Shown in pieces: positions 7,092-58,256 of a stretch of 64,000 nt of DNA. Source of the stretch: Orenia marismortui DSM 5156 (GTDB lineage: Bacteria > Bacillota > Halanaerobiia > Halobacteroidales > Halobacteroidaceae); the NCBI RefSeq assembly GCF_000379025.1, contig NZ_KB900617.1, positions 168,504 to 232,503 on the forward strand, given 5' to 3'. Position 1 is the stretch's first letter; each line of letters starts with the position of its first letter. The notes beneath the pieces were generated by a model. The model did not search any database. It was not told where the DNA came from and was given only the letters and a program-made list of their open reading frames with translations. The position numbers and the translations under genes were made by a program.

Positions 7092-7142
7092 TAACTAATA
7101 GATTTTAGCTTCTAGATTCTAGTTAATAGCCAATAGTTCAAT
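7092..7142. repeat. Heptad-repeat tract
   Basis: AG recurs at exactly 7-base steps over six units (for example TTTTAGC, TTCTAGA, TTCTAGT). It has the same period and word type as the core of the palindromic repeat family seen at 8015, 16845, 38452 and 56983, but no recognisable flanks. Confidence 0.6.
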
Positions 7143-7237: not shown

Positions 7238-7477
7238 ATGGAAATGCATCGTAAAATTGCAGTTGATGGTAGTTTAGCAAATATTAAAAAACGTCTAAAT
7301 GAATATGGTTACGAAATTGATGATCTCAATATGGACAATTTAGAAGAAGTTTCTGCAGTTATTACTAATGGACAATATGATATATCAACCCTCCAAAATA
7401 TGAATGCCCCAGTAATCAATGCAGAAGGCCACTCTGCAGAAGAGTTAAAAAATATGATTGAAAGTGGACTCTTTTAA
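7238..7477 (+). CDS. UPF0180 family small protein
   Basis: 79 aa, of unknown function, resembling Bacillus YkuS. The pattern is a short alpha/beta fold: IAVDGSLANIKKRLNEYGYEI, then a variable middle and APVINAEGHSAEELKNMIE, matching the family's closing TASGLTADE-type helix. The ATG at 7238 sits 13 bases after GAGG, slightly far. The gene at 7708 is a paralogue; each has its own upstream region with a repeat element between them. The Bacillus homologue is often mentioned as a small uncharacterised protein; no function is claimed here. Confidence 0.75.
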   Translation: MEMHRKIAVDGSLANIKKRLNEYGYEIDDLNMDNLEEVSAVITNGQYDISTLQNMNAPVINAEGHSAEELKNMIESGLF

Positions 7478-7507: not shown

Positions 7508-7672
7508 ATAAGCTGATAACTCTAGAGTGAACTTTAAAACTAAAGTTATATAAACTTACAATATTCCAGTAATAAATAAGCAATAAACAAATTAGCTTGT
7601 CCCCTGTTACTAGTCACTCGTTAATGTCACCTTATAATCATTAAGTTTCACTATAGAGTTTTTAGCTACATT
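7508..7672. repeat. Palindromic heptad-repeat element, copy between the UPF0180 genes
   Basis: The left flank has AACTCTAGAGTGAACTTTAA and the right flank AATGTCACC then CATTAAGTTTCACT, related to the consensus right flank. The core has GTTACTA, GTCACTC, GTTAATG in 7-base register. Confidence 0.5.
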
Positions 7673-7707: not shown

Positions 7708-7950
7708 ATGAAAAGAAAGATTGCAATAGAAGATAGTTTATCTAATCTTGCCAAAGAATTAAAAAAAGATGGTTTTGAAGTAGCTACTTTAAATAACAAT
7801 AATCTTCAAAATGTTGATGCCGTTGTTTTAAGTGGAGAAGATAACAATATGATGAACATGTCTGATATTCAAACCAAAGCCCAAGTTATTAATGCAAAAG
7901 GTCTTTCTGCCCAAGAATTAAAAGAAAGACTGAATAATCAATTAGTATAG
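7708..7950 (+). CDS. UPF0180 family small protein (second paralogue)
   Basis: 80 aa, unknown function, YkuS-like. It keeps the family plan better than its neighbour: KRKIAIEDSLSNLAKELKKDGFEV, the VDAVVLSGEDNNMMNMSD segment, then QVINAKGLSAQELKERL. The start ATG follows AGGTGG. It is followed at once by a strong terminator, so it is a single-gene unit. The two paralogues share the same ends but differ in the middle, which suggests an older duplication. Confidence 0.78.
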   Translation: MKRKIAIEDSLSNLAKELKKDGFEVATLNNNNLQNVDAVVLSGEDNNMMNMSDIQTKAQVINAKGLSAQELKERLNNQLV

Positions 7951-7980: not shown

Positions 7981-8014
7981 CATTAGAATTAAGTTTTAAA
8001 ATCTCTTAGATCTA

Positions 8015-8216
8015 TAGCTGTTAAAGTTTAGAATAAAATTTAATCTGCCGTTATAGAAAGAGATTGCGACAGTTTGGGAATTAGGCGTTAGGATATAGGT
8101 TCTAGGAGCTAGGTAAGCCCTAATGCCTATAACCTAACTCCTATTACCTATCACCTAGCACCTAAAAGTGTCTCTTTATACCTATTAAATTTTACTTTAG
8201 TATTCTATACATACAA
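8015..8216. repeat. Palindromic heptad-repeat element (best-preserved copy)
   Basis: Left flank AAAGTTTAGAATAAAATTTA, inner left box GAGATTGCGACAGTTT; right boxes AAAAGTGTCTC and CCTATTAAATTTTACTTTAG. The core has TAGG at exactly 7-base steps, five units on the left arm (TTAGGCG, TTAGGAT, ATAGGTT...) and six on the right arm read in reverse complement, so the whole can fold as one long imperfect hairpin. It is non-coding. Confidence 0.75.
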
Positions 8217-14680: not shown

Positions 14681-14702
14681 AAATACACTCCTAATATAAT
14701 TT

Positions 14703-14760
14703 AATTGTCAGTTATTAATTGTTGCTTATTGATTACTAACTAATAGCTACTAATCATTCA
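14703..14760. repeat. Loose heptad tract
   Basis: Words such as ACTAACT, AATAGCT, ACTAATC, ATTCATT follow an approximate 7-base step between the aminopropyltransferase and the DUF4247 gene. No flanks of the palindromic family are visible, so the relationship is inferred. Confidence 0.4.
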
Positions 14761-16807: not shown

Positions 16808-16844
16808 TTTAAATCCCTCCTTTATATATAATCATCCAACTTTA

Positions 16845-17030
16845 GAATAAAACCTAAATATCTCTTTATAGATAGAGATTACGACAGTTTTAGCTGCTGG
16901 CTGTTGGCTACTAGCCGCTGGCTTAGAGCTTATAAAAACAATAATAATAGCTAGAGGCTAACAGCTAAAAGCTAGTAGCAAAAGCATCTCAATATATCCA
17001 TTAAATTTCACTTTAAACTTGAATATCTAT
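16845..17030. repeat. Palindromic heptad-repeat element
   Basis: Left flank CAACTTTAGAATAAAACC, then GAGATTACGACAGTTT; right flank CATCTCAATATATCC and ATTAAATTTCACTTTAA. The core has GC at exactly 7-base steps, six units on the left (TTAGCTG, CTGGCTG, TTGGCTA) and five on the right arm in reverse complement. The rest of the gap up to 17328 shows an AATAATAGAAAG hairpin near 17118 and no ORF. Confidence 0.7.
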
Positions 17031-17328
17031 AAGTCCAAATTCTACTTTATTATCTATATTATTATTGAAATATCTTTTGAATAACTTTTGTAAGTAGCTG
17101 ACAAAAGGTAAATAATAGAAAGCTTTCTTTTTATTATTCTATCTCACTATTATAACTCCTTCTTTTGGATGACTTAAAGTGAATAAATTCTTATCCGCTT
17201 TCTAGATTATTTTGTTCCTAGTTATTTTATTTTATACAAATTATATTAACATAAAAATTGATATAACTGTTAAAACTAAAAGAAGCATAAGCTAAATTTA
17301 ATCATTTTGCAAGGAGGAAAAGAGCCAT

Positions 17329-28186: not shown

Positions 28187-28336
28187 TAACAACTCTAAAG
28201 TAAAACTTAAAGTTGATAAAGCGACAATTTCGGCGCTGGGAAATAGAGATAAATTTTAGAAAAAACTAGCTCCTAATAACTAAAGCCAAAAAAACGTTGG
28301 ATATCTAATGAACCCTAGACATCCTTCTATTAAATT
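28187..28336. repeat. Palindromic repeat element, diverged copy
   Basis: Left flank CAACTCTAAAGTAAAACTTA and AGCGACAATTT; right flank ATCCTTCTATTAAATTTCAA next to the recQ stop. The heptads are largely lost; GGATATCTA / TAGACATCC forms an inner hairpin at about 28300-28325. Confidence 0.5.
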
Positions 28337-30715
28337 TCAACTTATCTTATACTTTGCTACTACAAGTCCAATCTCTTCATAACTAACATCATCATCTAAT
28401 TTCTCTTTAATAGTTTTTAGTTTTTCATAGCCTACCTCTTCTATAGCTTGAATTATCTTTATTTTATTATTTTGAGATATAAACTTGTCTAAATCAACTT
28501 TTCTACCATCTTCTATCAACCTAATTAAATGATCTACTATAGTACCAACAGCTAAATCTCTTTTCTTAGCTATCTCTTCTAAAGACAATCCTTGTTGGTA
28601 TAATAAGAAAGTCTCATTATAAGTAGAACTTAAATAACTGCCTTTTTTCTCTTTTAAAAGAGGATATAAATTCAAAAATTCATTTATTTCTTTCAAAAAT
28701 TTTTCGCCGTAACGGTTATATATCACAGGACCAAAACCATTTACTCTTAAAATCTGCTCTTTATTCTGTGGCAATCTAACTACAAGCTCTTCTAAGGTCT
28801 TGTCATGAGCAATCATAAAGGGAGGCTTAGATTCTAATTGAGCTAAATTACTTCGCAATTTTTTTAATTTAGATAGCAACTTTGTTCTTGCCTTAGTAGT
28901 TAAATTATTTACTTCTTTTGCTTCTAATTTTAAATCCCAATTTAAATTATATGGTTGATGTAATATCTTATATCCAGCCTTACTAATCTTAACTGTAGGA
29001 TATCTTCCCTTCTCTTGAATAAGATACCCAGAGTTAATTAGTTCTTTTATTATTTTAATAACCTCATCATAAGTATAATCATTTATAATAGCATAAGTAG
29101 ATACTTTATCTAAACCTCTATTTAGGATTTTTTTAGACTTTGATCCTAATAATACCTTAACAACTGTAGTAATTCCAAATCTACCACCTAATTTAATCAC
29201 ACAACTTAGTATCTTTTGTACTACTATACCTAATTCTTTAGTTATTACCATCTTCTGCATAGATTCATTACAATTATCACAGCCAGGGCAATATCTTAAC
29301 CCATCTTCATCTCCAAAATAATTAAGAATATAATTATGGCGGCATTGACTAGTTTCAATATAACCTTTTAATTCTATTAATTTATTATATTTATTCTCTT
29401 TTAGCTTATAAAGTTTATAATAATCAATATCTAAAGATTTAGGGTCTACCCGCTCTAAGATCTTAAAGCTTATCTCTCCATCTTTTCCCTTAATCCTCTT
29501 TAAATATCCTTCTCTTCTCAATAATCGTAAAGAAGCCTCTAAAGATAATCTACTAGAGATCATATTTAAATTCATATACATATGATCTAAATTAACTAGA
29601 ATTTCATCTTTATTCTCCCTTAAACAATAACTGTAAACCGATTCTACCACTCTTCTTTCTGGATAATCACTCTCAATAAAAAACTGTCTCAAATCAATAT
29701 CATCTTGATGATATAACAAAATACATTTACTAGCATAACCATCTCTTCCCGCTCGTCCTGCTTCTTGATAATAAGCTTCTAAGGTACCTGGTAGTTCATA
29801 ATGAATAACTAGCCTAATATTAGATTTATCTACTCCCATACCAAAAGCATTAGTAGCAACTACAACCTCTCTTTTACCTTTCATAAACAATTCTTGAGCC
29901 CGTTTTCTAGCTTTGGCATTCATACCACCATGGTAACCTATGACTGAAAATTTATCTTTCAATAACATTACTATCTCTTCTACTCTATTTCTAGTCCCTA
30001 CATAAATAACAACTGGTAAAGAAGACCTCGTAACCATCTCTAGCAACTCTTTCTTTTTATCTGCTTCATTCTTAACATCTTTTACTTCTAAATATAGGTT
30101 TCTCCTATCAAATCCTTTTACTAATAGTTTGAAGTCTCTTAATTCTAATCCATTAATAATATCTTCCCTGACCTCAGGCGTAGCTGTGGCTGTTAATGCT
30201 ATTAATCTAGGGTTATCTAATTTCTGTCTTATTACCCCTAGCTTCATATAACTCGGTCGAAAATCATGCCCCCACTCTGAAATACAATGAGCCTCATCTA
30301 TTGCAAATAAGTCTACCTTAACTTTAGTAATTGTCTTTACAAAATTATCAGATTCAAAACGCTCAGGAGCGACATAAATGATATCATAGTAACCTTGCAA
30401 TATTTTATTTAGCCTATTTCTCTGTTCTAGCAAAGTTAGTGAGCTGTTAATATAGGTTGCTTTGATCTTTCGCTTATTTAAACTATCTACTTGATCTTTC
30501 ATCAAAGCTATTAAAGGAGAAACTACAATAACTAAACCTGATAGATATGTTGCAGGTAGCTGATAGCAAAGTGATTTCCCACTCCCTGTAGGTAAAATAG
30601 CCAAAATATCATTCCCAGCAAATAAATTCTCTAGGACTTCTTTTTGCCTAGGTCGTAGATTCTTATAACCAAAATATTTTTTTAAATTTCGATAAAGAAC
30701 ATCAGGTAAGACCAT
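28337..30715 (-). CDS. recQ: ATP-dependent DNA helicase RecQ
   Basis: 792 aa, longer than the usual about 600. Walker A LPTGSGKS (41-48), DEAH (140-143), helicase C with QEAGRAGRDG, zinc-binding Cys cluster CRHNYILNYFGDEDGLRYCPGCDNC, winged helix, HRDC domain (about 620-700) and an extra C-terminal HTH-like region (LYQQGLSLEEIAKKRDLAVGTIVDHL, about 715-740) typical of Firmicute RecQ. A 3'-5' helicase in recombination and fork repair. ATG behind AAAGGGG. Single gene. Confidence 0.95.
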   Translation of the reverse strand: MVLPDVLYRNLKKYFGYKNLRPRQKEVLENLFAGNDILAILPTGSGKSLCYQLPATYLSGLVIVVSPLIALMKDQVDSLNKRKIKATYINSSLTLLEQRNRLNKILQGYYDIIYVAPERFESDNFVKTITKVKVDLFAIDEAHCISEWGHDFRPSYMKLGVIRQKLDNPRLIALTATATPEVREDIINGLELRDFKLLVKGFDRRNLYLEVKDVKNEADKKKELLEMVTRSSLPVVIYVGTRNRVEEIVMLLKDKFSVIGYHGGMNAKARKRAQELFMKGKREVVVATNAFGMGVDKSNIRLVIHYELPGTLEAYYQEAGRAGRDGYASKCILLYHQDDIDLRQFFIESDYPERRVVESVYSYCLRENKDEILVNLDHMYMNLNMISSRLSLEASLRLLRREGYLKRIKGKDGEISFKILERVDPKSLDIDYYKLYKLKENKYNKLIELKGYIETSQCRHNYILNYFGDEDGLRYCPGCDNCNESMQKMVITKELGIVVQKILSCVIKLGGRFGITTVVKVLLGSKSKKILNRGLDKVSTYAIINDYTYDEVIKIIKELINSGYLIQEKGRYPTVKISKAGYKILHQPYNLNWDLKLEAKEVNNLTTKARTKLLSKLKKLRSNLAQLESKPPFMIAHDKTLEELVVRLPQNKEQILRVNGFGPVIYNRYGEKFLKEINEFLNLYPLLKEKKGSYLSSTYNETFLLYQQGLSLEEIAKKRDLAVGTIVDHLIRLIEDGRKVDLDKFISQNNKIKIIQAIEEVGYEKLKTIKEKLDDDVSYEEIGLVVAKYKIS

Positions 30716-38451: not shown

Positions 38452-38610
38452 TGTATATATTGTGACCTTTTTAGGTGGTAGGAGTTAGGTTATAGGGAGT
38501 AGTAAGGTCTTCCTACCTCCCATTCCCTAACGCCTAACTCCGAAAGTGTCGTTTCATCTTCCCTTAAAGACATATTTAAAGTTTATTCTAGAGTTAAATG
38601 ACTATAATTT
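38452..38610. repeat. Palindromic heptad-repeat element upstream of murB
   Basis: Left TGTGACC, right GAAAGTGTCG and ACATATTTAAAGTTTATTCT. The core has AGG at exactly 7-base steps, four units then AGT (GTAGGAG, TTAGGTT, ATAGGGA), with complementary CCTAA words on the right arm. The gap 37945-38645 otherwise shows only the inverted repeat at 38396. Confidence 0.7.
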
Positions 38611-45770: not shown

Positions 45771-45897
45771 TTTTAAATCCTCCCTCTCATCAATTATTAC
45801 TTGTTTATATTATTTAGATCTCATTTAAATTAATATCATTTCATTATTAATATTTCTAGATTATTATTCAAAGCCCTTTACTCAAAAATAAAAAATC

Positions 45898-46000
45898 TAC
45901 TTTAAGTATAAAGCGACAGAACAAGTTACTAGTTACTGAAGTGTAACTTTATTATCCTATAGATACATATTTAGATTTCATTCTAAAGTTGGATAACTAT
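45898..46000. repeat. Palindromic repeat element upstream of the barrel protein
   Basis: Left AAAGCGACAG, core GTTACTA, GTTACTG (7-base step), right GAAGTGTAAC, and ATTTCATTCTAAAGTTGGAT. The rest of 45771-46187 shows only an AT-rich leader. Confidence 0.6.
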
Positions 46001-46187
46001 AAAGATTCCTATATTACTACTCCATATTGCAAAACTTAAACTACTTTAATCTAAGAATAATATGTCATCTTATTTAAATATATTTATTTATTAATAAAGA
46101 ATACATAGATGCTGATAATTAACAAGAGGATTTGCTAATTATTTTTAGAAGTTAATAAGTTGAGAACAAATTAGAAAGGAGTATCAA

Positions 46188-46960: not shown

Positions 46961-46974
46961 AGTATATATGCTTA

Positions 46975-47874
46975 TTATTTAACTAATTTTAACGGAACTT
47001 TAATAAAGTCTTCTACTTCTTTTTGATCAGCAATTTTCTGAGCTGTCTCTACTGCCATCTCTCCAATTAAGCTTGGTTGCTGAGCAACAGTGGCATCTAT
47101 CTTGCCATCTTTAACAGCTTGTACTGCATCATCAATAGCATCAAATCCTACTATGATAATATCTCTTCCTGTAGCTTCAATTGCTTCCATAGCACCTAAA
47201 GCCATTGAATCATTATGAGCAAATACTGCATCAATATCTCTTTGTGATTGTAAGATATTTTCCATAACTGTCATACCCTTAGCCCTATTAAAATCAGCAG
47301 GCTGACTAGCTACAACTTCTATATTGTTATATTTATCAATTCCTTGATTAAATCCTTTTCCTCTATCCCGGGCAGCAGATGTTCCTGCAATACCTTCTAA
47401 CTCTACTACTTTTCCTGCTTTATTAATCTTTTCAGCTATAAAGTCAGCTGCCATTTCTCCTCCTGCTACATTATCAGAAGCAATATGAGCAGTAATCTCA
47501 CCACCATTAGCACCTCTATCAACTGTAATGACTGGAATATTACTATTATTAGCTGATTCAATTGCAGTTACTACTGCGTCACCATCTACTGGGTTAACTA
47601 CCAATACATCAATACCTTTCATAATTAAATCTTCAATACTACTTAATTGTTTAGCTGCATCATCTTGAGCATCTACAGTTAATACATCAAAATCTAATTC
47701 TTCTGCTTTAGCTTCTAATCCTTTTTTCATATCCACAAAGAAAGGGTTATTCTGAGTAGAGACTGCAAAGCCTATTTTTAACTTACCATCATCTTTAGCT
47801 CCATTCTTAGCACACCCAAACAATCCCATAGCCATCAAAAGTACTAATCCTAATGTTACTAATTTCTTAAACAT
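46975..47874 (-). CDS. rbsB: Ribose ABC transporter substrate-binding lipoprotein
   Basis: 299 aa. Lipobox MGLFGC (Cys about 21). IGFAVSTQNNPFFVDMKKGLE, VDAQDD, VNPVDGDAV, TVDRGANGG and GFDAIDDAVQAV are RbsB features. It is the last gene of the rbs operon in map order, but an IS30 element now separates it from rbsC and takes the space just upstream of its ribosome binding site. Its expression may have been cut off from the main promoter. Confidence 0.93.
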   Translation of the reverse strand: MFKKLVTLGLVLLMAMGLFGCAKNGAKDDGKLKIGFAVSTQNNPFFVDMKKGLEAKAEELDFDVLTVDAQDDAAKQLSSIEDLIMKGIDVLVVNPVDGDAVVTAIESANNSNIPVITVDRGANGGEITAHIASDNVAGGEMAADFIAEKINKAGKVVELEGIAGTSAARDRGKGFNQGIDKYNNIEVVASQPADFNRAKGMTVMENILQSQRDIDAVFAHNDSMALGAMEAIEATGRDIIIVGFDAIDDAVQAVKDGKIDATVAQQPSLIGEMAVETAQKIADQKEVEDFIKVPLKLVK

Positions 47875-47916
47875 TAATTATAACCCCCTTGAAATATTTT
47901 GTAATTATATTTTTAT

Positions 47917-49124
47917 GCTTCATTGTAAAATCAAATTGAACAAAATAAAAATAGCCATAGGGCACCAAACTGTAATATAATTAAATCACCACAAAGTAAC
48001 CAATTACAGGAGGGTGCACACTATGACTTACTTAAATGATACACCAAAATCCCGAAAAAATAAACACTTAAATGCTTATGAACGTGGTCAAATTGCATTA
48101 TTACATTCCGAAGGAATGAATCCAAATGCTATTGCAAAACGTTTAGGTAGAGCTTCTAATACGATTAGAAACGAGCTAAAACGTGGTACAGTTTCTCAAA
48201 TTAAAGCTAATAAAAAGGTTATGGCTTATTATCCTGACACTGGTCAAAGAGTTTATGAATCTAATCGCAAAAATTGTGGTCCTAAGTTTAAGCTTTTACA
48301 ATGTGAATACTTTATTGACTATGTTGTGGAACAATTCTACCAAAAAGGACATTCTCTTGATGCTATATGTGGTGCAGCAAAACTTCATAATAAATTTTCA
48401 AAGTCAGAAATGGTGTCTACTAAGACGCTGTATAACTATGTTAACGCTGGATTATTGACAATCAAAAACATTGATTTACCCTTAAAGCTTAAACGCTCTT
48501 CAAAAACAAATCGTACTAAAAATAATAAAAAGAAGCTTGGTATAAGTATAGATCAACGCCCTGAAAGTATTAATAATCGTAGTGAGTTTGGTCACTGGGA
48601 AATTGACACTATGATAGGCAAAAAGACTAAAAATGAATCAGTTTTACTTACTATGACAGAACGTATGACTCGTAAAGAAATTATTCGTAAAATCCCTGCC
48701 AAGACTGCTCAAGCAGTTCAAGATGCTATTTTAAAGCTCGTTAATGAAGCAGGAGATTGTTTTCCAAAAGTATTTAAAAGCTTCACTTGTGATAATGGCT
48801 CTGAGTTTGCTCAAATGTCATTTTTAGAGCAAATTAGTGATACTAAAGTATACTTTGCACATCCATATTCATCATGGGAAAGAGGAACTAATGAGCGTCA
48901 TAATGGTCTTATAAGACGCTTTATCCCTAAAGGTAATAGTCTAAACCAATTCTCTATTGAATCTATTGCTAGAGTCCAAAACTGGTGCAATACTTTACCA
49001 AGAAAAATCTTAGATTACCTAACCCCTGATGAAATATTTGAAGATAAATTAAAACAAATTCTTTATGACTAAATAACCAAATTATTACAGTTTAAAAATG
49101 TTCAATTTATTATTGCAATTTAAG
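47917..49124. mobile_element. IS30-family insertion sequence between rbsC and rbsB
   Basis: About 1208 bp. Imperfect terminal inverted repeats: left 47918-47942 and right 49099-49124 share AAATTGAACA at the inner end and CTT...ATTG at the outer end. A 13-base direct repeat (ATTATATTTTTAT at 47904-47916 and 49125-49137) flanks it and may be the target duplication, though AT-richness makes chance possible. One intact transposase on the plus strand, opposite the rbs operon. Confidence 0.85.
48023..49072 (+). CDS. IS30-family transposase
   Basis: 349 aa from the ATG at 48023 behind AGGAGGG. HTH region KHLNAYERGQIALLHSEGMNPNAIAKRLGRASNTIRNEL, then the DDE catalytic core: Asp in GHWEIDTMIGKK, Asp in FTCDNGSEFA, Glu in WERGTNERHNGLIRRF. 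Reading frame whole, so the element may be active. Confidence 0.95.
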   Translation: MTYLNDTPKSRKNKHLNAYERGQIALLHSEGMNPNAIAKRLGRASNTIRNELKRGTVSQIKANKKVMAYYPDTGQRVYESNRKNCGPKFKLLQCEYFIDYVVEQFYQKGHSLDAICGAAKLHNKFSKSEMVSTKTLYNYVNAGLLTIKNIDLPLKLKRSSKTNRTKNNKKKLGISIDQRPESINNRSEFGHWEIDTMIGKKTKNESVLLTMTERMTRKEIIRKIPAKTAQAVQDAILKLVNEAGDCFPKVFKSFTCDNGSEFAQMSFLEQISDTKVYFAHPYSSWERGTNERHNGLIRRFIPKGNSLNQFSIESIARVQNWCNTLPRKILDYLTPDEIFEDKLKQILYD

Positions 49125-49139
49125 ATTATATTTTTATTT

Positions 49140-49166
49140 AAAAAGAGATTAATTTAATCTCTTTTT
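49140..49166 (-). terminator. Stem-loop at the end of rbsC
   Basis: AAAAAGAGATTAA and TTAATCTCTTTTT arms include the rbsC stop. It can terminate in either direction; with the IS beyond it, it would limit rbsB transcription from upstream. Confidence 0.75.
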
Positions 49167-50107
49167 TGACTTCTTGTATCTAAGAAGATTGCAATCAGAA
49201 TTACTGCACCTTTAGCAACTAACTGGTAAAATGAAGATACATTCAATAGATTCAATCCATTATTTAAAATTCCAATGATTAAAGCACCGATAATCGTACC
49301 AACAATTCCACCTTGACCTCCTGCTAAGCTAGTCCCACCTAACACTACAGCTGCAATAGCATCTAACTCATAACCTGTACCTGCTGTAGGTTGTGCAGAA
49401 TTCAAACGAGAAGCTAGAATAATACCACTAACTGATGCTAAGAAACCACTAATAGCATAAACTCCAATTTTAATCTTATCAGTATTTATCCCAGATAATT
49501 CAGTCGCTTTCTCATTACCACCAATAGCATAGACATATCTACCAAAAGGAGTCTTCTTTAAAACAACATAACTAACTGCTAATAAAGCAAACATAATAAT
49601 TACTGGTACTGGAACCCCTAAAAGATGCCCAGTTCCTAAGAACCTAAAAGCTTTATCAAAACCCGAAATTGGTCTACCATTAGAATAAATCAAAGTCAAA
49701 CCTCTAGCAATAGTCATCATCCCCAAAGTAACTATAAAGGGTTGCATCTTGCCTTTAGCTACTAATATACCATTTAATAAGCCTAATAATGTCCCTACAC
49801 CAATGCCAACAATTAAAACTAAGGCAATATTCATTCCACTAGACATTAATCCTGCTGTAATTACTGATGATAAAGCCAAGACTGAACCTACAGATAAATC
49901 AATTCCACCAGTTAAGATTACAAAAGTCATTCCTAATGCCAAAACTGCATTTATAGAGACCTGTCTAGTCACATTCATTAAATTATGAACTGTTAAGAAA
50001 TATTCACTTAAAAAACTCATTACAATTATAAGACCTATAAGTCCAATAGCTGACTTAAATTTAGCAGCTAGCTTGATTATTTGAGATTCTTTACTCTTTG
50101 CTGTCAA
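49154..50107 (-). CDS. rbsC: Ribose ABC transporter permease
   Basis: 317 aa, 8-10 membrane segments, BPD_transp_2 family. NVTRQVSINAVLALGMTFVILTGGIDLSVGS and the loop AIAAVVLGGTSLAGGQG are typical. TTG start at 50107 behind GGGGGG. It follows rbsA by one base. Inner-membrane channel of the transporter. Confidence 0.94.
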   Translation of the reverse strand: MTAKSKESQIIKLAAKFKSAIGLIGLIIVMSFLSEYFLTVHNLMNVTRQVSINAVLALGMTFVILTGGIDLSVGSVLALSSVITAGLMSSGMNIALVLIVGIGVGTLLGLLNGILVAKGKMQPFIVTLGMMTIARGLTLIYSNGRPISGFDKAFRFLGTGHLLGVPVPVIIMFALLAVSYVVLKKTPFGRYVYAIGGNEKATELSGINTDKIKIGVYAISGFLASVSGIILASRLNSAQPTAGTGYELDAIAAVVLGGTSLAGGQGGIVGTIIGALIIGILNNGLNLLNVSSFYQLVAKGAVILIAIFLDTRSQKRD

Positions 50108-50108
50108 T

Positions 50109-51602
50109 TTAAATCCCCCCTGTAGCCAATTTCATTACTTTCTCTTGTGTTGCATCCTTTGCATCAATTTCTCCCATAATCTGATTTTCTCCCATAGCCA
50201 AGATTCGATTACTTAAGTTTAGTACTTCTGGTAATTGTGATGAGATCAAAATCACTGCAGATCCATCATTGACCAGATGAGAAATCAATTCATAAATCTC
50301 TTTTTTAGCCCCTACATCGATTCCCCTAGTAGGCTCATCTAAGATAATAATATCTGGCTTAGTACTTAATAATTTAGAGATAACTACCTTCTGTTGATTT
50401 CCCCCACTTAAGTTCTTAACTTTCTGCTTAATATGAGGAGTCTTAACTTTTAAACCTTGAACATACTTTTTAGCCAATTTTTCTTCTTCTTTGTTATCAA
50501 TCAAAGCAAACTTAGTAATTTTATTAAGAATAGATAAGGATGTATTCTCTTCTACACTCATTCCAAGAACTAAGCCCTCATCCTTACGACTCTCACTTAA
50601 ATAATATATTCCTAAACCTATAGCCTCTTTAGGAGAATTTATATTAACTTTCTCTCCTTTAACATATATCTCTCCCTCACTAGGCTTAAATAAACCAAAG
50701 ATCGTTTTAGCCAATTCTGTTCTACCTGAACCCATTAATCCTGCTATTCCTAATACCTCTCCTTTGTATAATTCAAAGGAGGCTTTTTCTACTTTACCTG
50801 GCACTACTAAATCTTTCACTTCTAATATCTTATCTGATGGTCTATGCTTAATCTCTGGAAATCTACTCTCCAATTTACGACCTACCATCATATTAATCAA
50901 TTCATCTTCATTAGTATCCTCTACCTGAACTTCACCAATGTATTTACCATCTCTTAATACTGTAACCTTATCACAGATTCCAAATATTTCTTCCATTCTG
51001 TGAGAGATGAATACAATAGCTATCCCTTTATTCTTCAATCTCTCAATCAAATCAGCTAGAATATCTATCTCTGTGGGTGTTAGCGAAGATGTAGGTTCAT
51101 CCATAATAATAATATTAGCATTTTGAGATAAAGCCTTAGCTATCTCTATCATCTGTTGATTACCAATATTCAAATCTCCAACTTTAGAACGTGGATCTAT
51201 ATCTACCCCTAATCTATCTATAACCTCTTGAGTTCTTTTAATCAACTCTTTGAAATCAACTAAAAATCCTTTACGAGGTTCACGACCTAAAAATATATTC
51301 TCTGCTACTGTCAGCTCTGGAACCAACTCCAATTCCTGATGGATAATTGCCAATCCTGCTTTTTGAGCTTCTTTGGGATTTTGAAACTCTACCTTTTCAC
51401 CATTTAAATAGATCTCTCCACCATTTCTTTTGTGAATACCATTCATAACCTTCATTAAAGTCGACTTTCCAGCACCATTTTCTCCTAACAGAGCATGAAC
51501 CTCACCCTTATAAAGCTTCAAATTAACACCATCAAGGGCCCTAACTCCAGGAAAAGTTTTGACTATATCCTTCATCTCTAAGATTAGTTCCTTTTCTGCC
51601 AT
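50109..51602 (-). CDS. rbsA: Ribose ABC transporter ATPase (double domain)
   Basis: 497 aa, two ABC domains as usual for RbsA. First: [11 protein letters not shown] Walker A and [10 protein letters not shown]; second: [10 protein letters not shown] degenerate Walker [14 protein letters not shown] and [16 protein letters not shown] overlaps the rbsD stop by one base, so the genes are coupled. Confidence 0.95.
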
Positions 51603-51997
51603 TAAAAATCAACTCCTGAAATTAGAATAATATTAGCATATGGAGTAACTTCACCAGTTCTAATAATTCCTTTAGATTTCTGACTTGACTTTTTAAACTC
51701 TTCATGGGAAGTAAACTCAATAGTAATATCTCCTAAAGCCTCCTTTACTTCTTTTAATAATTCTGGACTTATCTCCTTAATCTCTTCAGCTAAAATTGCT
51801 TTTTCTACCACCATCTCATCCAAAATAGTCTTTAAAACTTCTATAAATTTAGGTGTACCTGCCTTTAATGCTAAATCAATCCTATTAACATCCTGAGGTA
51901 TAGGTAAACCAGCATCACAAATTACTAATTTATCAGTATGTCCTAGCTCTGCAATCGTCTTTGAAATAGGAAGATTTAAAACACCTCTTTTTTTCAT
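51602..51997 (-). CDS. rbsD: D-ribose pyranase
   Basis: 131 aa. [30 protein letters not shown] with the catalytic His, and a C-terminal [18 protein letters not shown]. Converts beta-pyranose to beta-furanose ribose. One base from rbsK, so the operon is tight. Confidence 0.96.
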
Positions 51998-51998
51998 C

Positions 51999-52916
51999 TT
52001 ATAAACCCCTTTCTGCTTGGAATTTAGCTACATCCTCTTTTGTAGGCAAAGAGCTTTGTGCACCTAGTTTAGTTACTGATAAAGCTGCTACAGAATTAGC
52101 ATATCTAATAGCTTCTCCTTCAGTCCATCCTTTTTGTAAGCCATAAGCAAAAGCTCCTGCAAAAGAATCACCAGCTGCTGTAGTATCGACTACATCTACT
52201 TTAAGTGCATCATAGTTCTCTTCTCTACCATTACTGTAAATAGTAATCCCATCTCCACCTTGAGTGAGTAGAATCTGCTTTACTCCTAAATCTAATAATA
52301 ATTCTACCTTCTCTTGCAAAGTATTAACCTCATAGTCTTCTAATAATAAATCTAGTTCACCTTCATTAGGAAGTAAATAATCAATCATACTATAAAGCTT
52401 TTCAGGTAACTTTACAGCTGGAGCTGGGTCTAAAACAACAATAGTATCATATTTATTAGCAAGCTCAATCGCTTTACTTACACTTTCTAAAGGAATTTCT
52501 AATTGAAGTAATAATATTTTAGCTGCTTTAATCTTAGATTCAAAGCTTTCAATAGCCTCTGGAGTAATCTTAGAATTTGCTCCAGCAACTACAATAATTC
52601 GATTATCACCATCATCTTCAATGGTAATATTGGCAATTCCTGAACTCCCCTCTACTCGTAGTACATCATCTATATTTACTCCACCTGTTTTGAGACTATC
52701 TAATAATTCATCTCCAAAAGCATCCTGTCCACAGCATCCTATAAAGTTAACTTCCCCACCTAATTTTCCTGCTGTTAGAGCCTGATTGGCTCCTTTTCCA
52801 CCAGGGATTTGACTAAAATCACTTCCCATAATGGTCTCACCTTTTTTAGGTGCTCTAGGAGTTTGTACTACTAAATCCATATTCATACTACCAATTACTA
52901 AAATATCATCACTCAT
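51999..52916 (-). CDS. rbsK: Ribokinase
   Basis: 305 aa, PfkB family. [16 protein letters not shown] and [18 protein letters not shown] (catalytic Asp) are clear. Phosphorylates ribose at O5. The ATG at 52916 (MSDDILV) is preferred because AGGGGG lies 8 bases before it; an ATG at 52922 also exists but is too close to that site. The start overlaps the rbsR stop. Confidence 0.94.
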
Positions 52917-53922
52917 CTTCATACCCCCTTGTAGAATCCCTAATTATTAACTTAGGATTTAAGATGATATCTTCATCATCAACCTCTTCCTTGCTATCTA
53001 TCTTAGCAATCAACATATCAGCAGCAGCCTGTCCTAATTTATATTTAGACTGAGTCATAGTAGTTAACCCTGGCTTAATAATAGAAGCTATCTCAATATC
53101 ATCATAACCTACCACAGATATATCCTCTGGTATCCCTAATCCCATTTCAAAAATTGCTTCATAAGCTCCAATTGCCATCAGATCATTAGCTATAAACACT
53201 GCTTTAGGTCTATCTTTTAATCTTAATAACTTCTTCATCGCCTGATAGCCTGACTCTTTGCTAAAATCACCTTCAACAATCCACTCTTCCTTATAATTAA
53301 GATCAAAATTAGCTATAGCTTTCTTGAAACCTTCCAGTCTATCTTGACCGGTCTGAATTTCTAAATCCCCTGTTACATGAGCTATCTTTGTATGCCCCAA
53401 TTCTACTAGATGAGAGGTTGCATTATAAGCTCCTAAAGTATTATCAATTACAACTGCTTGATAATTAGAATCTGGAATCTTCCTATCTATCTGTACTACG
53501 TCAAAATTCTTTTCTTCTAATTTATAAAGTTCTTCTTTATTGCTAATAGATAGAGATAATATTATTCCATCTACATGCTTACTCTTCATTAAAGCAATAG
53601 CCTCTTTCTCTCTTTCCTTATCATTATCTGTATTACAGAAGATAACGGAATAATTTAATTCTCTAGCCCTATCTTCTACACCCTTTGCTACCTCTGGAAA
53701 GAAAGGATTACTTATATCGGGAATAATCAGCCCAATAGTATGAGTCTTTTGTAGGACCAATCCTCTTGCAATACCATTAGGATTATAGCCTAACTTATCT
53801 ATAACCTTTTGAATCTTCTTCTTAGTTGCTTCACTAACATCTGGTTTATCATTTAATACTCTAGAAACTGTAGTAGTAGAAACACCTGCTTCCTTAGCAA
53901 TATCCTTAATTGTAACTTTAAT
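52909..53922 (-). CDS. rbsR: LacI-family ribose operon repressor (probable ATT start)
   Basis: 337 aa from ATT at 53922. The first residues then read (M)[24 protein letters not shown], the classical LacI start, and GGAGG lies 8 bases before. The only alternatives, TTG at 53937 and GTG at 53931, fall in or before that Shine-Dalgarno sequence. HTH (about 4-24) and RbsB-like sensor domain follow. First gene of rbsR-K-D-A-C-B; probably binds the two palindromes upstream and releases them with ribose. Confidence 0.92.
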
Positions 53923-54043
53923 CTTTAGCACCTCCAAACAAAATCAAACTAATATCATATAGACTTTTATAACTAAAATTGTTAATCAAATAACTTTTTA
54001 ACTATATTTCGCTATAAATTTAAACTAAATACTTATCATTGTA

Positions 54044-54067
54044 ATCGATACCGGTAACGTTTCCGGA
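54044..54067. promoter_or_regulatory. LacI-type operator, proximal
   Basis: ATCGATACCGGTAACG then TTTCCGGA. CCGGTAACGTTTCCGG (54051-54066) is a near-palindrome centred on AACGTT, the usual LacI-family core. One base differs from the second copy at 54190. Confidence 0.75.
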
Positions 54068-54074
54068 GGGCTTA

Positions 54075-54135
54075 ATAAAAAAGAACCCACCAATACCTAA
54101 TAAAGAATACTCTTCATCAAGTAAAGTGGGTTCTT
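54075..54135 (-). terminator. Terminator in the leader upstream of rbsR
   Basis: Minus strand AAGAACCCAC and GTGGGTTCTT, 35-base loop, then TTTTTATTAAG. Placed between the two operators, about 110-170 bases after the strong promoter; it would end a short leader RNA there unless read through. Confidence 0.7.
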
Positions 54136-54189
54136 ATAGCCTTATAGTTTTATAACCACTTAATATTCAGTTATAGTTTTAGCTCCGTT

Positions 54190-54213
54190 ATCGATACCGG
54201 TAACGCTTCCGGA
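54190..54213. promoter_or_regulatory. LacI-type operator, distal
   Basis: ATCGATACCGGTAACG then CTTCCGGA; 23 of 24 bases equal the proximal operator. Lies about 40 bases downstream of the -10 at 54254. Confidence 0.75.
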
Positions 54214-54253
54214 AATGTTTATAAAAATAATTTTATTGTTATCTTATGGTTAA

Positions 54254-54282
54254 ATTATAACCCATTTTATTTTAGTTGTCAA
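54254..54282 (-). promoter_or_regulatory. Sigma-A promoter of the rbs region
   Basis: TTGACA (54282-54277), 17-base spacer, TATAAT (54259-54254) on the minus strand. Consensus. Both operators lie downstream of it. Confidence 0.8.
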
Positions 54283-54354
54283 TAAATTTTATTGTTTTTT
54301 ATAAAATTTTATAATTCACACTTATTCTCTTAAATAATTTTTTATAAAAAATTA

Positions 54355-54575
54355 TTTAAGAGAATAGTTATATTGCGGCAATTTTGAAAAGTAAAGAATT
54401 AAAACCTATCACACCTCCCTCTAACTTTCTCCTAAGATTAGGAGAAGCTGATTTTGCACGAAGAGTCTCGCTTTTTAGACTCGTGGGGCTGGGAGATGAG
54501 GTGTAAGATTTTGAATTTAACTATCAACTGTACACTGTAAATTGATATGAAATCATCTCAATATCTATTCAATAC
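54355..54575. repeat. Palindromic repeat element with branched fold
   Basis: Left ATATTGCGGCAATTTTG, right ATGAAATCATCTCAATATCT. Outer stem ACACCTC/GAGGTGT, hairpin TTCTCCTA/TAGGAGAA, then the inner hairpin at 54447-54488 that matches one at 57078-57118. Near the right end CTATCAACTGTACACTGTAA has 7-base steps. Confidence 0.6.
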
Positions 54576-54580
54576 CTAAT

Positions 54581-55297
54581 TTATGAAAATAAGCCTGCTA
54601 CATAAGCACAAGATGGGTTATTGATTATATTTTTGGCCTTACCTTGCTGAACAATCTCACCATCTCTTAAAACAACTATCTTATCAGCTATATTGATAGC
54701 ATCATCTTTATCATGTGAAACAAAGATTGCAGTCACTCCACTCTTTTTAATAATAGCTTTTAGCTCTTCTCTAATTCTAGATTGCAAACTAGCATCAAGA
54801 TTACTAAAAGGTTCATCCATCAATATTAATGAAGGTTCTATTGCCAAAGCTCTTGCTAAAGCTACTCGCTGTTGTTGTCCTCCACTGATCTGATAAGGAT
54901 ACCTATCCTTTAGTTCCTCTAGCCCTACCAATTTTAATAATTCACTTATTTTTTCCTTTTTATACTCTTTATCATTCTTCTTTACACCAAATAATATATT
55001 CTCTGCAACTGACATATGAGGAAATAAGGCGTAATCCTGAAAAACCATCCCAATCCCCCTTTTCTCAGGTAAGATAAAAGTATCATTATCAACTATTATC
55101 TTGCTACCAATCTTGATCAGACCTTCATCTGGCTCCTCAAGACCTGAAAGCAAACGTAAAACTGTACTTTTTCCACTTCCACTTTCCCCTAGTAGACAGA
55201 CTATTTCACCAGTATCTACAGCAAGATTAAAATCATTTAAGGTATCGACCTTAGAGTTCTTATATCTAAAATCCAAATCTTTAATTTCAATTAACAT
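54581..55297 (-). CDS. fbpC: Ferric iron ABC transporter ATPase
   Basis: 238 aa from ATG 55297 behind AGAGGGGGG. Walker A GESGSGKST, ISGGQQQRVALARALA signature, ILMDEPFSNLDA Walker B. No extended C-terminal domain, as in the short FbpC/SfuC group. Overlaps the permease gene end by 11 bases. Drives Fe3+ import (spermidine and thiamine transport ATPases are similar, but the neighbours fit iron). Confidence 0.88.
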   Translation of the reverse strand: MLIEIKDLDFRYKNSKVDTLNDFNLAVDTGEIVCLLGESGSGKSTVLRLLSGLEEPDEGLIKIGSKIIVDNDTFILPEKRGIGMVFQDYALFPHMSVAENILFGVKKNDKEYKKEKISELLKLVGLEELKDRYPYQISGGQQQRVALARALAIEPSLILMDEPFSNLDASLQSRIREELKAIIKKSGVTAIFVSHDKDDAINIADKIVVLRDGEIVQQGKAKNIINNPSCAYVAGLFS

Positions 55298-56912
55298 TTT
55301 TAGCCCCCCTCTTAACACTCAGCTTATGAATCCCATATATAGCTAGACTACAGATAAATATTATAATTATAGATGAAATAGCAGCTTCATGTATCATTTC
55401 GTCACTTGCATATTCAAAGGCTTTAGTAGCCAATGTATCAAAGTTAAAAGGCCTTAAGATTAAAGTTAGTGGTAACTCTTTAAGTATTTCAATTAAAGCA
55501 AGTAGAAAAGCACTGCTGATAGCTGGTTTAATCATTGGTAAATCAACCTTAAAGAAGGTTTCAGTAATACCTATACCTAAAGTACGAGAAGCTTCAAAAA
55601 AACTTTTACCCACTTTATCAAAGCCAGATTCTACAGAATTATAACCAATAGCTAAAAATCTAATAATATAAGCAAAAACAAGCATTAAAATAGTTGAAGT
55701 TAAGACTAGGTTACCAGAATATATAATATTATCTAATCCTAGGAAAAATAATAGAACACCTACTGCTATAACCGCTCCTGGAATCGAATAACCTAATATC
55801 GCTATCTTAGAATAGATTTTAGAAAAGATATTATCACTAATTCTCACAGTATTAGCTACGATTATTGAAATAACTACAATTAGTATCGAAGTAAATAATG
55901 CTACAAAGATTGAATTAAAGGACAAAATCAAGAAATCTATATCCAAAACCTTAGCATAACTTAACCAAACCCAATGAAGCAATTGTGCTGTAGGTATTAA
56001 AAACCCAATAGCAAAGATAGATGAACATAAAGCTGATACTAAAAAAGCTTTTATACCTGATAGTTTGATTCTAGAGATAGGTCTAACCTTAGTGGTACTA
56101 TAACTGTACCTCTTTCCTCCCCGCGAAAAATTCTCTATTAGAAGAACTCCAAAAACAAAGACCATTAATAAAGCAGATAACCTTACTGCTGAATTTAAAT
56201 CTCCCATTGAAAACCAAGTCTTAAAAATAGCTGTACTAAAGGTTGGGATACCAAAGTATTTTACAACACCATAATCATTTAGCACTTCTAAGATTACTAG
56301 ACTGACTCCTGCCACTATAGCTCCTCTAGAAATCGGTAAAATAACATGCCAGAAAATCTGTAAAGGTCCTTTTCCCAAAGTTCTAGCAGCCTCTACTAAA
56401 GAAGCACTTTGTTTTGATAAAAATGACCTTGTAATAATATAGACATACGGAAACAAAAAGATTGTATAAATAAATATTGCTCCAGAACTATTCATAATAT
56501 CAAAATAAGCTGGATTTACACTTATCCCCATACTCCTTAAAGTAGTCTGTAGGATTCCTGTATAATTTAACATCCCATTATAGGTGTAAGCTCCAATATA
56601 AGGTGGTATTGCTAAAGGTAAGATCAATGCCCATTTAAAGAAATCACGAAATGGGAATTCATATTGACTAATTAACCAGGCAGGTATTAAGCCGATTAAA
56701 ATAGAAAAAATCCCCGTAAAGAGAACTAGAATAGTTGAGTTGACTATATAATCTTGTAATAAGTATTCTTTAATATGATTCCAATTTTCATTTACTGGTT
56801 CAAAAATATTTAATAAAATATTAGCATTTGGGATTAGAACCAACATAATAATGATAAAGCTTGAAACTGACCAGATATTAAACAAAGATTTTAAATTTCT
56901 GCTCTTTAACAA
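55287..56912 (-). CDS. fbpB: Ferric iron ABC transporter permease (two fused halves)
   Basis: 541 aa, about 12 membrane segments in two homologous halves, each with the EAA loop (EAARTLGKGPLQIFWHVILPISRGAI; EASRTLGIGITETFFKVDLPMIKPAI). SfuB/FbpB type. Start is TTG 56912 behind AGGTG. Preceded by a partial terminator that may lower expression relative to fbpA. Confidence 0.9.
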   Translation of the reverse strand: MLKSRNLKSLFNIWSVSSFIIIMLVLIPNANILLNIFEPVNENWNHIKEYLLQDYIVNSTILVLFTGIFSILIGLIPAWLISQYEFPFRDFFKWALILPLAIPPYIGAYTYNGMLNYTGILQTTLRSMGISVNPAYFDIMNSSGAIFIYTIFLFPYVYIITRSFLSKQSASLVEAARTLGKGPLQIFWHVILPISRGAIVAGVSLVILEVLNDYGVVKYFGIPTFSTAIFKTWFSMGDLNSAVRLSALLMVFVFGVLLIENFSRGGKRYSYSTTKVRPISRIKLSGIKAFLVSALCSSIFAIGFLIPTAQLLHWVWLSYAKVLDIDFLILSFNSIFVALFTSILIVVISIIVANTVRISDNIFSKIYSKIAILGYSIPGAVIAVGVLLFFLGLDNIIYSGNLVLTSTILMLVFAYIIRFLAIGYNSVESGFDKVGKSFFEASRTLGIGITETFFKVDLPMIKPAISSAFLLALIEILKELPLTLILRPFNFDTLATKAFEYASDEMIHEAAISSIIIIFICSLAIYGIHKLSVKRGAKNVN

Positions 56913-56950
56913 TTTTATTCACCTAACTTGTTATAATTTTTTTATAAAGA

Positions 56951-56973
56951 AAGGCAGCCCCTTTGGCTGCCTT
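56951..56973 (-). terminator. Stem between fbpA and fbpB
   Basis: AAGGCAGCC / GGCTGCCTT with a short loop, followed on the minus strand by TCTTTAT. An attenuating stem rather than a strong terminator. Confidence 0.6.
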
Positions 56974-56982
56974 AGATATAGA

Positions 56983-57200
56983 GCTTAAAGTGTAACTTAA
57001 GATAGAGATTGCGACAGTTTCTATTAGCTGCTAGCTACTGGCTTCTAGGCTTTAGCTTTTAAGGTCTTAGCTAATAGCAGATTTATCACGAAGGGTTTAT
57101 GATTTTCGAACCCGTAGGAACAGCTAAAAGCTAGTAGCAAAAGTGTTACATTATACCTATATAATGATATACTTAAATCCTACTCTAAAGCTACACATTT
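56983..57200. repeat. Palindromic heptad-repeat element within the fbp operon
   Basis: Left GTGTAACTTA and GAGATTGCGACAGTTT; right AAAAGTGTTAC, TATACCTATATAATG and CCTACTCTAAAGCT. The core has 7-base units with TAGC (ATTAGCT, GCTAGCT, ACTGGCT), one slip of a base, then the inner hairpin at 57078-57118 and complementary AGCTAAAAGC. Lies between fbpA and fbpB, so it is probably transcribed. Confidence 0.75.
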
Positions 57201-57212
57201 AGTTTAAATAGA

Positions 57213-58256
57213 TTATTGCCATCCTATTTCATTAAAAATTTCAACTGCTTTCTGATTAAATTCTCCTAATTTAGTTAGGTTGATATCTTGAGTTTCAAAA
57301 TCTCCCCATGAGTTCAACAATGCTGAAGGCTCTACATTTGGATTTGCTGGATACTCATAATTAGCTTCAGCAAAGAATTTTTGAGCTTTTTTACTTGCTA
57401 AAAATTCAATTAACTTAATAGCATTCTCTTTATTTTTAGCATGCTTAGTAAGTCCAATCCCACTTACATTAACATGTGTTGGTTCTAAGAAACGTACTCC
57501 TACTTGCTTAGCTACTTTTACTTCTTCTGGATTAGAAGAGTTTAACATCTTTCCAATATAGTAAGTATTCATAATCGCTAAGTCACCAGTTCCTGCTGCA
57601 ACTGCTGTAGCTTGAGCTCTATCGTTACCTTTAGGCCTTCTTGCCATATTATTCAAAACACCTTCTGCCCATGCTCTTGCATACTGTTCACCCTTTGTAG
57701 CAATCAGTGAAGCTAGTAACGATTGATTATAAATATTTGATGAAGATCTTACTAAAATTTTATCATCCCATTTTTCATTTGCCAAGTCTCCATATGTATT
57801 GATATCTAAAGGATTTACTCTATCTTTAGCATATACAACAACTCTTCCTCTTACAGTTAACCCAACCCATTGATTATCTTCATCCCTTAAATTTTCTGGA
57901 ATATTGTTTAATACCATTTCACTATCTATAGTCTGCAATAAACCTTTTGTTTTAGCTCTATGTAATCTACCTGCATCAGCTGTAATTAACAGATCAGCCT
58001 GTGTACTTTCACCTTCTCTATCAATTCTTTCAATTAATTCATCAGAACCACCTTTTAAGACATTTACCTTGATTCCTGTTTCTTCTTCAAATTGTTTAAG
58101 TAATTCTTCATCAGTATCGTAATGCCTATTAGTATAAAGGTTAACCTCTCCATTGTCCTCTCCTAATAAGAAATCAAAGAACCCAGCCGAAGCTGTTGAA
58201 ACTGAAACTACTGTTAACACTAAAGCCATCGATAATACAAATAATGATTTTTTCAT
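57213..58256 (-). CDS. fbpA: Ferric iron-binding periplasmic protein
   Basis: 347 aa. Signal peptide ending ASA-G (no lipobox, so soluble periplasmic in a diderm). NLYTNRHYDTDEELLKQFEEETGIKVNVL opens the fold; the iron-binding adjacent Tyr232-Tyr233 (MNTYYIGKM) is present, as is the RSSSNIYNQSLLASLIA segment. FutA/FbpA family. First gene of the operon behind a Fur-type promoter. ATG behind AGGAGG. Confidence 0.92.
   Translation of the reverse strand: MKKSLFVLSMALVLTVVSVSTASAGFFDFLLGEDNGEVNLYTNRHYDTDEELLKQFEEETGIKVNVLKGGSDELIERIDREGESTQADLLITADAGRLHRAKTKGLLQTIDSEMVLNNIPENLRDEDNQWVGLTVRGRVVVYAKDRVNPLDINTYGDLANEKWDDKILVRSSSNIYNQSLLASLIATKGEQYARAWAEGVLNNMARRPKGNDRAQATAVAAGTGDLAIMNTYYIGKMLNSSNPEEVKVAKQVGVRFLEPTHVNVSGIGLTKHAKNKENAIKLIEFLASKKAQKFFAEANYEYPANPNVEPSALLNSWGDFETQDINLTKLGEFNQKAVEIFNEIGWQ

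Follow-up and report, generated by a model that had tools for sequence, protein, structure and literature searches.

Nested palindromic repeats of Orenia with an inherited frame and replaced, word-periodic hairpin centres

The index element occupies positions 8015-8216 of the window, the whole 64-kb stretch (64,000 nucleotides) that was analysed, which lies in a 3.46-Mb genome (G000) of the same genus as Orenia metallireducens MSL40 (G002). Two adjacent UPF0180 genes on the same strand precede it (7238-7477 and 7708-7950), and one such element follows each of them. Read on the forward strand, the index element consists of a left outer arm (8012-8049), which is a weak match to the outer arm TATAGNTATCCAACTTTAGAATGAAATTTAA and is conserved in the related genome G001 and in G002, a left inner box, GAGATTGCGACAGTTT (8060-8075), a heptad arm in which TAGG occurs five times at exact 7-base steps (8082-8113), a second heptad arm of seven CCTA words, the reverse complement of TAGG, again at exact 7-base steps (8119-8164), a right inner box, AAAAGTGTCTCTTTAT (8164-8179), and a right outer arm (8180-8209). 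The first-pass annotation had counted five units on one arm and six on the other; the five stand, but the second arm carries seven. No open reading frame of at least 80 aa was found over 8012-8209.

The index element is a member of a high-copy family of intergenic nested palindromes in this Orenia genome, and scores of such hairpin-shaped intergenic repeats occur in these salt-loving bacteria. Aligned copies, ~185-235 bp in size, display three nested layers in which outer inverted arms enclose an inner inverted box, which in turn encloses a centre hairpin. The outer arms are imperfect inverted repeats (TATAGNTATCCAACTTTAGAATGAAATTTAA... paired with ...TTAAGTTTCACTTTAGACTTGGATATCTATA); several further arm types exist, and in many copies the arms have decayed. 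The inner box is conserved (GCGACASTTT ... AAASTGTC), reading approximately ATATTGCGACACTTTT/AAAAGTGTCGCAATAT in O. metallireducens and ATAAAGCGACAGTTT/AAAAGTGTCTCTTTAT in G000, and the box pattern returned 100 exact matches in G002 compared with 6 for the reversed control. The arms of the centre hairpin are degenerate tandem words repeated every 6, 7 or 8 bases. The layers are also found separately: some arms lack a heptad centre, some centres sit between decayed arms, and some heptad tracts have no box. All 30 copies that were checked are intergenic, and 22 of them are flanked by co-directional neighbour genes.

The heptad element reported at first pass is real. Exact tracts of four TAGSNNN units number 195 in G000, against 1 for the reversed control pattern, and a DNA search with the index core gave 44 matches (40 places with E<=1e-11), which together exclude chance; the counts for G000 rest on searches and sampled stretches, with the copy census made by BLAST. 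In the intergenic DNA of the window the 7-base autocorrelation that had been put forward as a check does stand out, with a lag-7 excess of z=5.2 for matches and z=5.5 for runs of four (lag 14, z=2.9-3.4). The signal is nearly gone, however, when the named sites are removed (z=1.0 and 2.1), indicating that the periodicity is carried by the elements and not by intergenic DNA generally, and a general intergenic period-7 bias was therefore rejected. A feature common to the Halanaerobiia was likewise rejected, as among the 59 genomes searched for exact heptad tracts these exceed the control mainly in five genomes of the family (G000-G004); one TAGG-repeat contig was also present in a less complete genome. 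A search of the PLSDB plasmid collection returned no match, and spread by plasmids was rejected.

The other copies proposed for the window fared differently. The flank GAGATTGCGACAGTTT recurs exactly at 8060 and near 56999, and is varied at 16875 (GAGATTACGACAGTTT), within a TAGC-word element with outer arms (16825-17033, forward strand); G001 has no element here, and the gap in G002 contains just a different remnant, a left half at another position. The copy at 38452 is a related TAGG-word element (38455-38606), but it lies on the reverse strand, opposite in orientation to the index, and has a different box. A further TAGC-word element (56974-57195, forward) holds a small hairpin module inside arm 2. 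The supposedly diverged copies at 7508 and 45898 have outer arms or boxes but no full heptad centre: the first is an outer-arm element without a heptad centre (7518-7668, forward), absent from G001 and G002, and in the second a box and outer arms surround a very short centre (45893-46002, forward; GTTACTAGTTACTG). A decayed copy does lie at 28187-28345 (forward; AAAGCGACAATTTCGGCGCTGGG), whereas 54355 has another kind of centre and 58606 was not confirmed. Both flankless heptad tracts, placed at 7092 and 14703, were seen, the former as a single-arm TAG heptad tract without boxes (7104-7140, forward) and the latter as a degenerate tract (14700-14757, forward), in a gap where G001 has a two-armed AGTTTAC heptad hairpin and G002 about two units. 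The window also encodes an IS30 family transposase (48014-49072; ends near 47896-48040 and 49037-49159), the ends of which occur alone many times in G001 and G002. IS30 was rejected as the source of the element ends, because the IS30 of the window has other ends.

Parsing of the family yielded 133 copies in 37 centre clusters, some copies entering in both orientations or through overlapping loci, and centres with differing words and periods cannot go into one alignment. In many centres the arms are periodic; wherever the periodicity is significant in both, the two agree in period and word, confirming the earlier statement that the two arms of a copy use the same word. The kinds of centre include TAGG and TAGC centres of period 7, centres of period 8 built on TAGG-like words, and centres of period 6, and across subfamilies the words are TAGG, TAGC, TAAG, ACAATT and GGAATC. 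The constant period of 7 claimed at first pass thus holds in G000 but not in the genus, as O. metallireducens has 6- and 8-base versions. Within arms the lag-7 match is 0.92 for the 4-base word and 0.37 for the 3-base spacer (combined p ~1e-12, with arms trimmed by eye and related arms not all independent); hand-cut units give 0.91 and 0.34, chance being 0.31-0.37, and the other three positions of the heptad do vary, as had been noted. Centre lengths step mostly by multiples of 7 (80/87/94/115, 76/83 and 115/122/136) and single-base changes are rare, which indicates that slippage acts. Young arrays in which whole units are still identical occur at G000:C1:270929 and in L151, the latter a single-arm array of ~14 perfect units; together with the length steps, they are what slippage would produce. 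The former (G000:C1:270929-271030, L162:13929-14030) is a single-arm TAGG array of ~14 units that has a higher-order repeat of 28 bases, lacks an inverted arm and is apparently a young expansion. The loss of spacer identity beside retained words, however, needs selection or a pairing-dependent process, and not slippage alone. Thus, the templated slippage suggested at first pass accounts for length changes that are mostly multiples of 7 and for the word and period shared by the arms, but it leaves unexplained both the spacers at chance level and the replaced centres at orthologous sites described below.

Orthologous gaps were compared through the synteny of G000 with G001 and G002. At 56983 of the window the gap measures 300 bp in G000 and 58/59 bp in G001/G002, where the site is empty. 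A second empty site corresponds to G000:C5:114220 (230 bp compared with 45/45 bp in G001/G002), beside ATACCGATCGGTAT; both junctions of the element read TATA beside the CGGTATA of the empty site, the flanks being strongly diverged. At two orthologous sites, the only ones of this kind found, we show that the frame was inherited and the centre replaced, and thus that these repeats can be rewritten in place. At G000:C1:258792 and its counterpart in G002:C4 the flanks and boxes align (z=6.7 on the left and 14.8 on the right, where 65/72 positions are identical), whereas the centres are unrelated (z=-0.8), comprising TAGG heptads in G000 and ACAATT heptads in G002. For G000:C5:129299 and G002:C5 the flank scores are z=8.1 on the left and a weak 3.5 on the right, and the score of the centres, TAGG versus GGAATC heptads, is z=0.9. 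These z values derive from shuffled scores, which were used for the centres because their gapped identities are not meaningful. Two further comparisons are suggestive only. At the index site a hexad hairpin stands in G002, with AATATACCCAATTAA after it, while G001 retains a decayed remnant; in L006/L102 the elements of two species occupy one gap in opposite orientation, indicating that repeated insertion into the same gaps also occurs. The pair L018/L049 was rejected as orthologous, as only the type-2 outer arms and the box align and not the surrounding DNA. L162 B2@257712, the 270929 array and L074 have no usable orthologous gap. DNA identity between the Orenia species is ~74-80% (coding DNA differs by ~20-26%), such that intermediate steps are unseen and single events untraceable.

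Within one genome, it is the centres that are shared. In 23 TAGG copies at unrelated sites of G000 the centre is 98% identical and the next 8 bp 93%, declining to 81-85% at 9-16 bp, 55-63% at 17-32 bp and 39% beyond 33 bp, against a background of 32%. Similarly, the centres of nine TAGC copies in G002 are 97% identical, compared with 60-82% for the box. The near-identical block spans ~103 bp and has inverted ends, and an 83-bp centre is identical in five G000 copies that have different outer flanks. A transposon moving as a unit is expected to be uniform up to a sharp end; the identity around these centres fades at varying points and not at one base. Chimeric centres, which point to recombination, were also identified: the left side of L117 is 100% type A and its right side 100% type B2, while L072 and L077 join A2 to A. 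The TAGG centre was not found in G001 or G002, where database matches cover mainly arms and boxes.

We propose, with a probability of roughly 60%, that the family is built on a frame of MITE-like character, in which recombination among dispersed copies writes over the hairpin centre; slippage and arm matching form part of this reading. The frame (outer arms plus box) enters new sites whole, in the manner of a MITE, as the presence and absence of elements at orthologous gaps shows. Replication slippage adds whole units to the arms or removes them, as the length steps show. The centre is replaced in place with sequence from other copies of that genome by recombination or gene conversion, the route probably being homologous recombination or a switch of replication template from one copy to another, and each species is consequently dominated by its own current centres. 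Overwriting is shown by the orthologous frames with unrelated centres, by the greater uniformity of centres than of frames, and by the chimeras. The arms probably stay complementary through hairpin-templated repair (template switching) and/or selection for the hairpin; published work supports template switching as a means of homogenizing inverted-repeat arms (PMC8604942) and as a process by which hairpins are created and maintained (PMC8794818). Counting against this reading are the shortness of the boxes (~13-25 bp), which provide little homology for RecA-type conversion, the small number of sites with replaced centres, and the opposite orientations in L006/L102. As a MITE-like whole unit, as first suggested, the element has nested inverted repeats, no open reading frame, an intergenic position and empty orthologous sites, but no cognate transposase with matching ends was found (box pairs in G002 lie at most ~430 bp apart), nor any clear target duplication for the frame. 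In L066 (G002:C29:1-190), at a contig end, the left box runs into sequence resembling an insertion-sequence end.

It could be argued that the uniform centres reflect mobility of a smaller unit, and some insertion sequences and REPs are indeed known to insert specifically into palindromes. The centre with its inner box (~105 bp) would then itself be mobile, transposing specifically into the middle of existing frame palindromes, an explanation that we consider unlikely, although less so than the other alternatives. The ~103-bp block with inverted ends would fit such an element, REP dimers sitting inside longer palindromes provide a precedent (PMC3733652), and G000 contains a single-copy RAYT-like gene (L172:937-1443, G000:C1:1069287-1069682; 168 aa). 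However, the frames examined included none in which the box was intact but empty, the identity lacks a single-base end, and the chimeric centres favour recombination. The RAYT-like gene matches Pfam Y1_Tnp at 27.9 bits and NCBIfam REP_Tyr_transpos at 61 bits, below the cut-off of 80, and it has no flanking boxes or heptads within the 2.4 kb read. Its coding region contains a GTAG palindrome, GTAGGGAATGGTCGCGACCATTCCCTAC; in L086 similar palindromes serve as centres, and L087 also contains such palindromes. Alternatively, whole units might transpose as an ordinary MITE, the centre being uniform merely through stronger constraint than the arms. The inverted arms, small size, lack of an open reading frame, intergenic position and empty orthologous sites all accord with this, but the centres are unconstrained between subfamilies and the two inherited frames carry unrelated centres, so that this explanation was already disfavoured. 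Moreover, the ends of a transposon are normally its best conserved part, whereas here they are the least conserved, and we regard an ordinary MITE as decidedly improbable.

Selection offers a different explanation for word retention, in which the element is a functional structured RNA or protein-binding array and a ligand reads the 4-base word at fixed pitch. Words that are kept while spacers have drifted to chance, and folding far better than that of shuffled sequences (z -4.0 to -9.6), would suit such a role, a structured RNA having been among the first-pass suggestions. The folding is, however, strong on either strand, orientation relative to genes shows no bias (13 with, 9 against), and no Rfam match reached the gathering score in the window; a dedicated RNA gene is thus not favoured. 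As word (TAGG, TAGC, TAAG) and pitch (6, 7, 8) also vary among copies of one genome, with complete turnover between species, selection by a ligand appears improbable, if slightly less so than an ordinary MITE. Finally, the elements could be plain products of slippage, heptad microsatellites with occasional inverted copies and no mobile frame. Single-arm arrays do exist, as at G000:C1:270929 and in L151, and heptamers outnumber other repeats of this kind in many bacteria, according to work cited in PMC4679880. The dozens of unrelated sites that share conserved boxes and outer arms nevertheless refute slippage as the whole story and, with centres identical across sites, make this by far the least credible account.

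The first-pass annotation knew of no named family like this one, which is correct for the present combination, and in the open-access literature we found no description of a frame that carries exchangeable centres made of periodic words. Published precedents for its parts are the paired heptads of Xanthomonas, the modular BOX elements and REPs lying within palindromes, and it is the combination that is new. The Xanthomonas (GGGANTN)n repeats (Rehm et al. 2015) include 70-75 cases of two inverted arrays close together and are mostly intergenic and not conserved in place between close species (PMC4692102). Both systems share heptamer units with fixed and free positions and inverted array pairs. 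In contrast to Orenia, however, no conserved frame or box is reported for Xanthomonas, which has one word per genome and no swapped centres, and its word contains G-tracts of at least 3 and is G-quadruplex-capable, whereas the Orenia words contain only GG. REPs tagged with GTAG or CGTC are nested in long palindromes in Anabaena variabilis, T. roseum and H. neapolitanus (Di Nocera et al. 2013, PMC3733652), a survey of GTAG repeats in which Firmicutes are not listed. The Orenia elements are likewise small hairpins in long palindromes, high in copy number and intergenic, but a nested REP centre is GTAG- or CGTC-tagged and 20-40 bp long, and an Orenia centre has word-periodic arms. The GTAG tag is absent from the Orenia box and heptad centre, separate GTAG palindromes occurring elsewhere (for example L086, L087 and L172), and no linkage of the frame to the one RAYT-like gene was found in the 2.4 kb read. 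The pneumococcal BOX element, boxA-(boxB)n-boxC, combines constant ends with a variable number of internal modules (PMC3049150). By its description it shares with Orenia strong folding, insertion of elements into one another and suspected trans-mobilization; its internal module is one fixed-length sequence, however, while in Orenia neither the words nor their period are constant and centres have been replaced. STAR elements of Staphylococcus aureus carry a fixed motif at regular steps, with variable spacers and changes in unit number (PMC3532100), but form a single direct array without inverted arms, and their authors found no spacer transfer between loci, whereas Orenia centres are common to several. 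The STRR heptamers and TAACTGA repeats of cyanobacteria resemble the Orenia arrays in being seven-base, intergenic and probably subject to slippage; they differ in being essentially direct repeats without a frame, the published account giving 169 direct sets to one inverted (PMC4679880).

A stronger version of our reading, which we advance only tentatively as it is doubtful, is that an active process in Orenia rewrites hairpin centres within a fixed palindromic frame, such that a new word with period 6, 7 or 8 arises in both arms of a single copy and then spreads across frames, giving each species its own set of centres at inherited sites. If true, this would be a repeat family with inherited frame and exchanged content. 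The co-evolution of inverted-repeat arms and the bacterial excess of 7-base repeats are old puzzles, for which mechanisms (template switching, polymerase slippage) have been proposed and natural test systems are few. Orenia provides dozens of comparable copies in one genus, with several words and periods, empty sites, chimeras and replaced centres. With such copies it can be asked how arms stay matched, why the word outlasts the spacers, and how short repeats are homogenized across a chromosome.

Several minor observations concern other centres and modules. Long centres of ~270-430 bp between the same boxes share a GTTTGAACGAAGCAAAAATTGAG...AAAAGTAAC core in L065, L069, L132, L145 and L148-L150 of G002 and in L051 of G001. 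In another genus of the same family (L054 and L056, from G007 and G006), closed box palindromes (GATATAAAGTGGCAAAGTGCCACTTTATATC; ACAATATTGTGGCACTTTCAGTGCCACAATATT) flank, and do not enclose, an ACAGTTN heptad hairpin. The window region ~46974-57990 is 82-95% identical to O. metallireducens contigs, compared with ~74-77% for the remaining window, which suggests transfer or a mobile region. The small hairpin module, (GGATTTATC)ACGAAG-[variable stem-loop]-CGTAGG, sits inside heptad arms and other centres, at 57076-57122 of the window and in L107, L111, L129, L142, L148, L149 and L174:873; its ends are constant and its stem varies (GGGTT/AACCC, GAGTCT/AGACTC, GAGTTTTT/AAAAACTC). In L174 the module splits a transposase gene of the IS200 type and has GTAG on either side.
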